Source: an uncultured Bacilli bacterium
Lineage (GTDB): Bacteria; Bacillota_I; Bacilli_A; RF39; UBA660
Length of the DNA stretch: 42,418 nt
Direction of reading: 5' to 3'
Assembly (NCBI GenBank): GCA_944371955.1
Contig: CALVYB010000005.1
Coordinates: 1 to 42,418, forward strand
The position numbers were made by a program, and so were the translations under genes. The notes beneath the pieces are model-generated. The model was not told the DNA's origin. It made no database searches and worked only from the letters and a program-made list of their open reading frames with translations. Positions 21,884-25,693 of this stretch are shown in pieces. Each line of letters starts with the position of its first letter. Positions within the stretch are counted from its first letter, which is position 1.

Positions 21884-23299
21884 ATGCATTTACCTGATTT
21901 TAAAGAAGCTAGGACTAGAGATATTCGTCCTTATAAAAGAGTTGAATTTAAGGAAGATGATGCAGTAAAAAATAAATATCAAGGAAAGACTTTTTATTTA
22001 AAAACTTATGGATGTCAAATGAATGAACATGATAGTGAAAATATAGAGGCCTTGCTTACATTTTTAGGATTTTCTAAAGTTAATAGTTATATGGATGCTG
22101 ATTTAGTGTTGCTAAATACTTGTTCTATTCGTGAAAATGCTCATAATAAAGCTTTTGGAATGCTTGGAAGACTTAAACATTTGAAACAGGAGAAGAAAGA
22201 TTTAATTGTTGGAATGTGTGGGTGTATGGCTCAAGAATCAAGTGTAGTTGATTCGATTCTTAAAGATTATAAATGGGTTAACTTTGTATTTGGTACTCAT
22301 AATATGTATCAATTACCTACTATTATAGATAAAGCCATTGAAGAGAATAAACAACAAATTGAAGTCTTTTCTCGTGAAGGTGATTTGATTGAAGGGTTAC
22401 CTGTTCTTCGAGTTAATGATTATAAGGCTTATGTTAACATTATTTATGGTTGTAATAAGTTCTGTACTTATTGTATAGTACCATATACAAGAGGACGTGA
22501 AAGAAGTCGTTTAAAAGAAGATGTTTTAGAAGAAGTTCAAAAATTAGTTAATGATGGTTATAAAGAAGTTACTTTACTTGGTCAAAATGTCAATGCTTAT
22601 GGTAAGGATTTGTATGATGATTATACTATGGCTAATTTATTGGAAGATGTTGCTAAAATGGGAATTCCTAGAATTCGTTTTACAACGTCTCATCCTTGGG
22701 ATTTTACAGATGAAATGATAGACGTTATAGCTCAATATCCTAATATTATGCCTAGTGTTCATTTGCCAGTTCAAAGTGGTTCTAGTCGCATTTTAAAGTT
22801 AATGGGGCGCAGATATACCAAAGAAAGCTATCTAGAATTATTCCATAAAATTAAAGATAAAATTCCAGGGGTTGCCATTTCTACAGATATCATTGTAGGA
22901 TTTCCTGGTGAAACTGAGGAAGACTTTTTAGAAACTTTAGATTTAGTTCGTGAATGTCAGTATGATAATGCTTTTACTTTTATCTTTTCTAAACGAGAGG
23001 GAACTCCCGCTTGTAGATTAGCAGATCCGGTTCCTCTAAAAGAAAAAGAAGAACGTCTTCAGAGATTAAATGAAGTTGTTAACCATTATTTCTTAGAAAA
23101 TAATAAAAAACTTGTCGGAAAACAACTTGAAGTTTTAGTTGAAGGTATTTCTGATAAAAAGAATATGTATTATGGGTATAGTGCAACTAATAAATTAATT
23201 AATTTTTCTAGTCAAAGAGATCTTACTCCAGGAGATTTAGTTGTAGTAACAATAGAAGATGCTAAAACTTGGAGTTTGGATGGTGCAGCAGTTGAATAA
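21884..23299 (+). CDS. miaB: tRNA-2-methylthio-N6-dimethylallyladenosine synthase
   Basis: A radical-SAM methylthiotransferase acting on A37 of tRNAs that read UNN codons (471 aa). The N-terminal UPF0004 domain starts KTYGCQMNEHDSENIEALL and holds three cluster cysteines, including LLNTCSIRENA and GMCGCMAQ. The radical-SAM cluster motif is YGCNKFCTYCIVPYTRGRE (CxxxCxxC). A C-terminal TRAM domain (LVGKQLEVLVEGISDK onward) binds tRNA. GTGAGGTGG is the ribosome site. It overlaps ricA by 20 bases, the same order as the Bacillus ymcB-ymcA pair. Confidence 0.95.
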   Translation: MHLPDFKEARTRDIRPYKRVEFKEDDAVKNKYQGKTFYLKTYGCQMNEHDSENIEALLTFLGFSKVNSYMDADLVLLNTCSIRENAHNKAFGMLGRLKHLKQEKKDLIVGMCGCMAQESSVVDSILKDYKWVNFVFGTHNMYQLPTIIDKAIEENKQQIEVFSREGDLIEGLPVLRVNDYKAYVNIIYGCNKFCTYCIVPYTRGRERSRLKEDVLEEVQKLVNDGYKEVTLLGQNVNAYGKDLYDDYTMANLLEDVAKMGIPRIRFTTSHPWDFTDEMIDVIAQYPNIMPSVHLPVQSGSSRILKLMGRRYTKESYLELFHKIKDKIPGVAISTDIIVGFPGETEEDFLETLDLVRECQYDNAFTFIFSKREGTPACRLADPVPLKEKEERLQRLNEVVNHYFLENNKKLVGKQLEVLVEGISDKKNMYYGYSATNKLINFSSQRDLTPGDLVVVTIEDAKTWSLDGAAVE

Positions 23300-23600
23300 A
23301 AAATTAGAAGACATAATTTTAACTATAAAAAATAGCAATGATTATATACAATGTATTAGATTAAAAGAAAAAATGAAAAAGAATGAAAATTTAATGCATT
23401 TAATTGAAACTTTAAAAAGTAGGCAGAAAGAATTTGTTAAAAATGGCTATGAAGGCAAAGAAAGTTTGAAAGAAATAGAAAATGAATTATGTGAGATTCC
23501 TATTTATGCTGCTTATATGGAACATTTAGAAAAAGTAAATCAGATGATTTCTTATATTCAAGATGAATTGAATGATTATTTTTACAATTTGTTTAATTAA
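23280..23600 (+). CDS. ricA: YlbF/YmcA family protein, RicA-like
   Basis: A 106-aa helical protein of the YlbF/YmcA family. In B. subtilis RicA (YmcA), RicF and RicT form an Fe-S complex that aids RNase Y processing and affects sporulation, competence and biofilm. The sequence is nearly all helix: KKLEDIILTIKNSNDYIQCI, RLKEKMKKNENLMHLIETLK and IPIYAAYMEHLEKVNQMISY. The position directly after miaB matches the Bacillus gene order and supports RicA over YlbF. The start at 23280 has GGAG seven bases upstream inside miaB. The terminator expected after this gene is split by an insertion sequence. Family is clear; the exact paralogue is inferred. Confidence 0.8.
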   Translation: MVQQLNKKLEDIILTIKNSNDYIQCIRLKEKMKKNENLMHLIETLKSRQKEFVKNGYEGKESLKEIENELCEIPIYAAYMEHLEKVNQMISYIQDELNDYFYNLFN

Positions 23601-23619
23601 TAATTAAAAAAGACTATGA

Positions 23620-23623
23620 TTTT
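23620..23623. repeat. Target-site duplication, left copy (TTTT)
   Basis: TTTT directly before the left IS end; the matching copy is at 25065-25068. The homopolymer makes exact length (3 or 4) uncertain. Confidence 0.65.
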
Positions 23624-23648
23624 TGAACTGAACCCCAAAAGTTGGACA
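23624..23648 (+). repeat. IS terminal inverted repeat, left
   Basis: Starts TGAACTGAACCCC and ends GTTGGACA; matches the complement of 25040-25064 at 18 of 25 positions, with the outer and inner blocks conserved and five central bases divergent. Confidence 0.85.
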
Positions 23649-23663
23649 GTTTATAATTAGTTT

Positions 23664-24476
23664 CTAATTAGAGGATTGTAACCTGTAATTTACAGGGGAC
23701 AGTCCTTTTAATTTTACTTTAATTCTATCATAATTGTAATAATAAATATAGTCATCTATTGCTTTTATCAAGTCATCTAATGTTTTATAATTATCTTCTT
23801 GATCATAAAACATTTCTGTTTTGAGTATGCCAAAAAAGTTTTCCATCATCCCATTATCCATACTATTTCCTTTTCTAGACATACTTTGAATAATTCCATG
23901 ATTTTTTAATTTTTGTTGATAAGAATGGTGTTGATATTGCCATCCTTGATCCGAATGAAATATTAATCCTTCAAGATTAGTGTTTTTATCAAATGCTTTA
24001 TTAAGCATATCATTTATTTGTTCTAAACTAGGTGATTTAGAAGTATTATAAGATATTACTTCACCATTATATCCGTCTAGTATTGGAGATAAGTAACATT
24101 TTTCTCCACGGAGATTAAATTCTGTAACATCAGTATACCATTTTTTGTTTGGATAATCTGCTTCAAAATCTCTATTAATAAGATTATCTGTAACTTTACC
24201 AACTGTACCTTTATATGATGAATATTTTCTTTTATTTCTTTTTAATGGTTTTAATCCTAATTTAACCATTATTCTATATACTTTCTTATGATTAACCTTA
24301 TAACCTTGATTTCTTAATTCTAATGTGATTCTACGATAACCATATCTTTCTTTGTGTTTAAGAAAAATTTCTTTTATTTTATTAATTACTTCTTTGTTTT
24401 TATCATCTTTATCTATTTTAGATAAAGTATAATAATATACAGATTTAGCCAAACCAGATACTTTTAGAAGAATCAT
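23664..24476 (-). CDS. IS3-family transposase OrfB (DDE integrase domain)
   Basis: Catalytic part of the transposase (270 aa from its own ATG). An HTH_21-like segment (HKERYGYRRITLELRNQGY) precedes the rve integrase core: KWYTDVTEF (first Asp), LIFHSDQGWQYQH (second Asp) and MENFFGILKTEMF (Glu). It is in the -1 frame relative to orfA. In-frame codons continue upstream of this ATG to the overlap, reading VVSELRLRYPLMILLKVSG, typical of the start of the OrfAB fusion region. The active enzyme is therefore probably the frameshifted fusion. All DDE residues are present and no internal stop is seen. Confidence 0.93.
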   Translation of the reverse strand: MILLKVSGLAKSVYYYTLSKIDKDDKNKEVINKIKEIFLKHKERYGYRRITLELRNQGYKVNHKKVYRIMVKLGLKPLKRNKRKYSSYKGTVGKVTDNLINRDFEADYPNKKWYTDVTEFNLRGEKCYLSPILDGYNGEVISYNTSKSPSLEQINDMLNKAFDKNTNLEGLIFHSDQGWQYQHHSYQQKLKNHGIIQSMSRKGNSMDNGMMENFFGILKTEMFYDQEDNYKTLDDLIKAIDDYIYYYNYDRIKVKLKGLSPVNYRLQSSN

Positions 24477-24511
24477 TAATGGATATCTTAGCCGAAGTTC
24501 ACTTACAACAC

Positions 24512-25021
24512 TTACTTTTTCTTCTGTTGTTGATTCTTCCTTGCTTGAACAACGGCTCTCAATTTTTTTGAGTAATCTAGTTCTGCTTTCAAATATAAAT
24601 TTTCTTCTTCTAATCTTTTAACTTTTTCTTCTATGGTTTCATTTTTTGGGGGCTTTGTAGATTTCTTTGGCATAGTCGATCGACCTCGCTTTCGTTCAAC
24701 TATATTATAACCCATTTCTTTATATTTTTTTATCCAAGTATGTAACATTCCTTCACTTGGCAGTCCTTCATCAACAGAAACAGATTGTATTGATTCATTA
24801 TTTAATAATACTCGATTTATAATTTGTTCTTTTTGGTAAGGTGGATAATATTTATTTTTAGTATGTTTTAATATATCAAATCCATGCCTATCTATAAGCC
24901 AAACCAAATATTGAATATTATGCTTAGTTATACCATATTTAGAATGTAGAGTATTTAATGTTACTCCTGCTTTTCTTTTATTATATATTTCTATTTTTTC
25001 TTCATAACTTAATTTGCTCAT
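24512..25021 (-). CDS. IS3-family transposase OrfA (helix-turn-helix)
   Basis: The DNA-binding part (169 aa). An HTH occurs near residues 5-50 (LSYEEKIEIYNKRKAG, TLNTLHSKYGI) and a second HTH near residues 60-105 (QSVSVDEGLPSEGMLHTWIK). A leucine-zipper-like helix follows (EEKVKRLEEENLYLKAEL). It ends in a Gln/Lys-rich tail where the minus strand reads GAAAAAG (24515-24521) immediately before TAA: a likely -1 slippery heptamer joining it to orfB, as in other IS3 elements. Confidence 0.92.
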   Translation of the reverse strand: MSKLSYEEKIEIYNKRKAGVTLNTLHSKYGITKHNIQYLVWLIDRHGFDILKHTKNKYYPPYQKEQIINRVLLNNESIQSVSVDEGLPSEGMLHTWIKKYKEMGYNIVERKRGRSTMPKKSTKPPKNETIEEKVKRLEEENLYLKAELDYSKKLRAVVQARKNQQQKKK

Positions 25022-25036
25022 ATAAAAACCTCGTTT

Positions 25037-25693
25037 CTATGTCCAAGAAACGGGGTTCATATCATTTTGTTCATAGTCTTTTATTTCTTTTAAAATTCTT
25101 TCTTTAGTATTTTCTATAAATTGTTTTATTAAGAAAATGTCAAAGATGTAGTTCTTTTCATTGGTTGAATTTTCTATAATAATTCCCATTTTGTCGATTA
25201 GTATGTTTAACTTTTCTATAGGTATTTCATCAATTATTGTGTCGGGTTTTTGGAACTCTTCATAAAAAAGGGATAAATCCATATCGTACTCTTCAATGAT
25301 TTTTACATTTAGATTGGTGTAATCTGAGTATATTAATTTGGGTAATTCTTCTGGTAATACATTGATGATTGTGCCATCTATTAGATGGATAGAATTGTTT
25401 TGTACCAATGTATTTAAGAATTTATCGAACCATAATTTATCTGTAAGTAAATGAATGTAATATCCTAAGTCAAAATCATTTTTATAAAAGAAAGGATATT
25501 TTTTTGTAAATAGATTCATGTTTGGTACATCTTCTTTTTCGTTATATAAAAAGTGAGATTCTTGTTTTGTTCTTCCTATTTGTTTGGCAATGTCTGGTGC
25601 AATTGCCCCTAGATAGTAATCTTTTCTTTTTTTTATGTTAAAGTATGGTTCTAATACTTTTGCGACTGCTAAATGAATTACTGCTGATGCCAT
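25037..25693 (-). CDS. Zinc-dependent phospholipase C-like protein, C-terminus altered by IS
   Basis: A 218-aa protein resembling the zinc-dependent phospholipase C-like/DUF family often found in Firmicutes: MASAVIHLAVAKVLEP holds an early His, DYYLGAIAPDIAKQ a conserved Asp motif, KQESHFL a His, and LGYYIHLLTDKLWFDKF a HxxxD. These are plausible metal ligands; the enzymatic activity is unproved. AGGAGGTAG gives a perfect ribosome site before the ATG at 25693. The last codons lie in the IS: after EQN the protein reads DMNPVSWT and stops in IS sequence. Without the IS it would read EQNHSLF and stop at 23604-23606, four residues shorter, so the body of the protein is intact. Confidence 0.75.
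   Translation of the reverse strand: MASAVIHLAVAKVLEPYFNIKKRKDYYLGAIAPDIAKQIGRTKQESHFLYNEKEDVPNMNLFTKKYPFFYKNDFDLGYYIHLLTDKLWFDKFLNTLVQNNSIHLIDGTIINVLPEELPKLIYSDYTNLNVKIIEEYDMDLSLFYEEFQKPDTIIDEIPIEKLNILIDKMGIIIENSTNEKNYIFDIFLIKQFIENTKERILKEIKDYEQNDMNPVSWT
25040..25064 (-). repeat. IS terminal inverted repeat, right
   Basis: The complement begins TGATATGAACCCC and ends CTTGGACA. It also encodes the last residues and nearly the whole altered C-terminus of the neighbouring PLC-like gene. Confidence 0.85.
25065..25068. repeat. Target-site duplication, right copy (TTTT)
   Basis: Matches TTTT at 23620-23623. Removing the IS and one copy restores a continuous hairpin. Confidence 0.65.

Follow-up and report, generated by a model that had tools for sequence, protein, structure and literature searches.

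An IS150-like branch of the IS3 family of insertion sequences (IS) very likely picks the loops of intrinsic (Rho-independent) terminators as targets, with a 3-bp staggered cut there. Both in the clade of the species represented by the window (the whole stretch of 42,418 nucleotides analyzed here, from an uncultured Bacilli bacterium) and among distant Bacillota relatives, most copies with an intact target-site duplication (TSD) were shown to lie at the dyad axis of predicted terminator hairpins.

The window contains a complete IS3-family (IS150-like) element of 1441 bp on the minus strand (23624-25064). Relatives align over bases 1 to 1441, confirming its ends, and the imperfect terminal inverted repeats start with TG and end with CA (from TGAACTGAACCCC to GGGGTTCATATCA). 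Two separate open reading frames, both on the minus strand, encode the transposase: orfA (24512-25021) specifies a helix-turn-helix (HTH) subunit (PF01527, E = 1e-5; NF033516, E = 9.6e-9) and orfB (23664-24476) a protein with an integrase core (DDE) domain (PF00665, E = 4e-24; NF033516, E = 6e-95). The combination of an HTH OrfA with an rve/DDE OrfB, TG/CA terminal repeats and a short (3-5 bp) duplication places the element in the IS3 family. The OrfB proteins of ISKpn8, IS150 and ISEnfa3 are 44-46% identical to that of a 52%-identical distant relative used as query, these values being pairwise matches.

The IS is flanked by the two arms of a host terminator hairpin, AAAAGACTATGA (23608-23619) and TCATAGTCTTTT (25071-25082), which are perfectly complementary over 12 bp and lie where the original prediction had located them. 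The joined empty site folds with an energy of -14.7 kcal/mol, a value equaled by none of 200 dinucleotide shuffles (z = -7). The IS ends at 23624 and 25064 had also been called correctly, but not the duplication (given as TTTT) and the loop (given as TTTTGT). Identical 3-bp flanks were found in 32 of 53 full copies for which both flanks were available (6% expected by permutation), while 4-bp identity occurs in 7 and 5-bp identity in none. These counts rule out a 4-bp duplication. Thus, the duplication in the window is TTT (left copy, 23621-23623; right copy, 25065-25067), and the fourth T is a chance match. Reconstruction with 3 bp yields a 7-nt loop, TTTTTGT, and a core of 19 nt, equal to that of empty orthologues (CTATGAATTTTGTTCATAG in the sister species G015 and G003).

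The left neighbor ricA (YlbF/YmcA family; Pfam Com_YlbF; 23259-23600, plus strand) ends shortly before the hairpin, which is a stem-loop with a T-tract directly past the stop codon, an arrangement kept in the orthologues. On the other side lies a PLC-like gene (25037-25693, minus strand), the product of which matches PF00882 only below threshold (E = 0.0033). In the sequences of G015 and G003, this gene extends into the hairpin and has its TAG stop codon in the far arm. The insertion in the window exchanged the PLC-like tail for a few IS-encoded residues, and the final codons of the gene now extend into the IS end. The draft genome containing the window comprises 69 contigs and 1.1 Mb.

Strong matches to the PLC-like gene led to the orthologous sites in 11 further species of the genus. 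The IS is absent from the site in 10 of these, and all 10 retain the hairpin (empty site in G015 and G003: AAAAAGACTATGAATTTTGTTCATAGTCTTTT). This comparison with relatives lacking the IS at this site, which had been proposed along with the original prediction, and the fold of the joined site support the view that a conserved convergent terminator-like structure separates ricA from the PLC-like gene and that the IS sits in its loop, as predicted. The eleventh species, G007, carries a decayed, shortened IS copy (L028/L146; contig G007:C71) in the same ricA/PLC hairpin, at a point 1 nt off the window position in the reconstructed empty site. The window IS is 75% identical to this copy, 95% identical to L099 and 93% identical to L008, the latter two at other sites. 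Shared ancestry of the two insertions is unlikely, because of this 75% identity, the closer copies elsewhere and the empty sites in the sister species; on the simpler reading, the window genome (G000) and G007 probably record two independent hits on one terminator. G007 and G013, each represented by a single draft genome, contain 31 and 23 mostly partial, scattered IS matches, respectively, a pattern suggestive of earlier bursts and of numerous relics or short derivatives.

Of 291 genomes from the family, 40 contain the IS at E <= 1e-100, and a scan of named genomes added 80 loci. Flanks were scored as pairing at a flank-to-flank energy of <= -7 kcal/mol across the insertion or, as a second criterion, at an anchored stem score of >= 10. 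Backgrounds were 2017 nearby positions and shuffled flank pairs; the latter control is conservative because A- and T-runs are preserved in the shuffled pairs. By energy, 24 of 32 TSD-intact clade copies pair (75%), whereas the rates are 4.7% at nearby positions and 10% for shuffled pairs. The anchored score identified 20 of 32 copies (0.7% of nearby positions, 3.9% of shuffled pairs). A first hairpin score, based on free local alignment of the flanks, was too permissive, since A-runs and T-runs find partners however the flanks are permuted, and was superseded by these two measures. Among distant relatives, 12 of 17 TSD-intact copies pair strongly against a background of 9%. No pair of TSD-intact sites with similar flanks was found, indicating that these insertions are separate events. 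Thus, the count of stem-loop sites among other copies, suggested at the outset when a preference could not be told from one copy, reveals one. The 20 clade copies that lack a TSD pair in only 6 cases, and copies mostly outside hairpins are what an IS without target preference would leave, the window case then being a coincidence. This idea is refuted by the TSD-intact copies, which occupy hairpins at several times background, and its probability is close to nil. We read the TSD-less copies as probably rearranged. In at least one of them, L052, the two flanks appear by eye to stem from different terminators, one half each, as if two IS copies had recombined, which is the expected outcome of later recombination.

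About one quarter of the TSD-intact clade copies lie outside a clear short-loop hairpin (e.g. L011, L046 and L100). Long-loop or interrupted hairpins surround L034, L080 and L086; at L086, the IS is located at the base of a second, inner hairpin inside the loop of the host hairpin. Four near-identical copies in G360 have off-motif ends, with a hairpin that is clear at one, weak at one and not clear at two. L194 (G346:C5) departs from the other copies in its genome, which are in loops: it lies at the foot of a terminator's 3' arm, immediately ahead of the T-tract. The loci L102 and L107, one labeled Bacilli and its partner Lawsonibacter, have the left flank and the IS in common and differ in their right flanks, possibly due to misbinning or an IS-mediated rearrangement.

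The same kind of hairpin is found at the insertions of OrfB relatives (~45-64% identical) from other families within the class, and of named relatives in Neobacillus soli and Gallicola. The Neobacillus insertion, for example, has AAAAACTCGTCAGAA to the left of the IS and GAACTATTGACGAGTTTTT to the right. A relative also occurs in Ligilactobacillus salivarius. With strong pairing at most sites of the distant relatives, the habit is not special to the window species; as far as these sequences tell, terminator targeting is broad among Bacillota relatives.

The targeted hairpins look like terminators in their flanking tracts and gene layout. An A5 run is present to the left of the insertion at 40 of 49 sites and a T5 run to the right at 32 of 49 (background 12-13%), while the reversed arrangement occurs at 8 and 6 sites. 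The genes on either side of the clade sites are convergent in 16 cases, tandem in 13 and divergent in one, with two lacking a resolved layout. The strong enrichment of both tracts is also what would be seen if the transposase read a paired A-tract and T-tract, as bent DNA ~20 bp apart, with the hairpin only a passenger. The distances from the TSD to A4 (9.4 ± 3.4 nt) and to T4 (9.5 ± 3.1 nt) are similar on both sides, as this explanation would have it. However, 18 of 49 sites have one tract only, and 10 of these pair strongly; 4 of 49 have no tract, and 3 of these pair. We consider tract reading possible but rather unlikely. No correlation between left and right tract distances was found, and the distances vary, so this test does not separate hairpin from tract reading and speaks neither for nor against a ruler.

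The gene layout bears on two further explanations. RNA polymerase pauses at the 3' ends of genes, where the IS sites are located, and a paused polymerase or a transiently opened strand at the terminator could attract the transposition complex. Such transcription-dependent targeting appears improbable, since the symmetry of the DNA directly accounts for insertion at the dyad axis, with no need for RNA. It is also conceivable that the IS inserts anywhere and that only intergenic copies, often in terminators, persist in compact genomes. All sites with a resolved layout but one are downstream of at least one gene, where the least harm is expected. Yet selection of this kind does not account for a preference for the loop center over stem or spacer: in the combined clade and distant sample, the hairpin center is <= 3 nt from the TSD center at 34 of 45 sites, and pairing at 75% of clade sites contrasts with 5% nearby. 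As one terminator has, in addition, probably been hit twice independently, we regard survivorship as more doubtful still.

We therefore favor selection of the terminator loop by the transposase, which would introduce its 3-bp staggered cut there. What the transposase recognizes may be the hairpin (or a cruciform) with its two-fold symmetry: the arms differ in length and sequence from site to site, and the loops in sequence, yet the insertion remains close to the center. Reading of such symmetry is consistent with the central position and the variable arms, as well as with sites that have one tract or none.

The IS itself carries terminator-like hairpins facing inward at both ends. At the right end, a 12-pair hairpin with a T-run (25022-25058, minus strand) is directed toward transcripts from the PLC-like gene. 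On the transposase strand it reads AACCCCGTTTCT-loop-AGAAACGAGGTT, with T's after the second arm and the orfA ATG directly behind them. Both sides of one pair are changed (G-C to A-T) in 7 of 47 unique copies, and G-T is present in 4 of 47. Since the inner arm lies outside the terminal repeat, its covariation indicates a paired structure. The right end thus combines a conserved stem, compensatory change and a following T-run. Most distant relatives are arranged alike at one of their ends, with hairpins of about -15 to -29 kcal/mol. At the left end, a conserved hairpin with a TTTTAATTTT tail (23673-23715, plus strand; median -19.6 kcal/mol) is directed toward ricA transcripts. The case for this structure is weaker, because it overlaps the last, conserved orfB codons, so that the protein may explain its conservation, and little two-sided change is seen. 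T-G pairs, found at one position in 40 of 51 copies, favor, if weakly, the strand opposite the transposase genes.

These hairpins would stop incoming transcripts, suggesting that termination is restored for both neighbors and that orfA and the other transposase gene are shielded from outside transcription. The insertion thus probably swaps one terminator for two. The original prediction had termination lost and ricA transcripts running far into the transposase; this is probably wrong, given the conserved structures at both ends, and loss of termination is weakened as the main effect. If termination is restored in this way, terminators between genes would provide a low-cost niche.

Insertion into hairpins has precedents. 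ISPsy8, an IS3-family element, is described as having a 3-bp direct repeat and as inserting on the axis of symmetry of a hairpin predicted there (PMC1525189), and experimental REP specificity of IS1397 and ISKpn1 is cited in a passage of the same paper. The window IS family resembles these three elements in its IS3 affiliation, OrfA/OrfB organization and insertion at the hairpin axis. In contrast to their single repeated target family (REP/BIME), its targets are unrelated single terminators with only a common architecture. For group IIC introns, Rho-independent terminators are the landing sites, with insertion downstream of the stem and use of IBS motifs (PMC3522654). These introns are retroelements that insert 3' of the stem, whereas the window IS family uses a DDE transposase and inserts into the loop. 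IS231A, of the IS4 family, targets palindromic transposon ends and generates longer duplications; it shares a palindromic target with the window IS and differs in transposase and duplication length. The E. coli copies of IS150 itself (L238-L248), on chromosomes and plasmids and at several distinct positions, adjoin a hok gene (hokA, hokB, hokE or plasmid hok) in 11 of 11 cases sampled, which are not independent events, as several are at one common site. They are located in or beside a GCCCC..GGGGC-type hairpin, usually off-center. The archetype thus seems to use a hairpin as well, but a specific one: with an IS150-like transposase and a GC-rich hairpin in common, it differs from the window IS family in returning to a hok-linked hairpin instead of general terminators. 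We found no published terminator targeting by IS3-family or IS150-like elements in the open-access literature.

In conclusion, targeting of terminator loops would extend the palindrome-axis insertion known for the IS3 family (REP) to any intrinsic terminator hairpin. We consider it about evenly balanced that a broad IS150-like group across Bacillota pursues a generic safe-harbor strategy, choosing general terminators by shape, bringing built-in terminators at its ends and swapping one terminator for two. Since the copies mark terminators, they may help to annotate transcript ends in uncultured Bacillota. The IS family also offers a test system for shape-directed target choice by a DDE transposase. 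The findings suggest how a common DNA transposon spreads with little harm: it aims at the structures that end genes and seems to restore termination.
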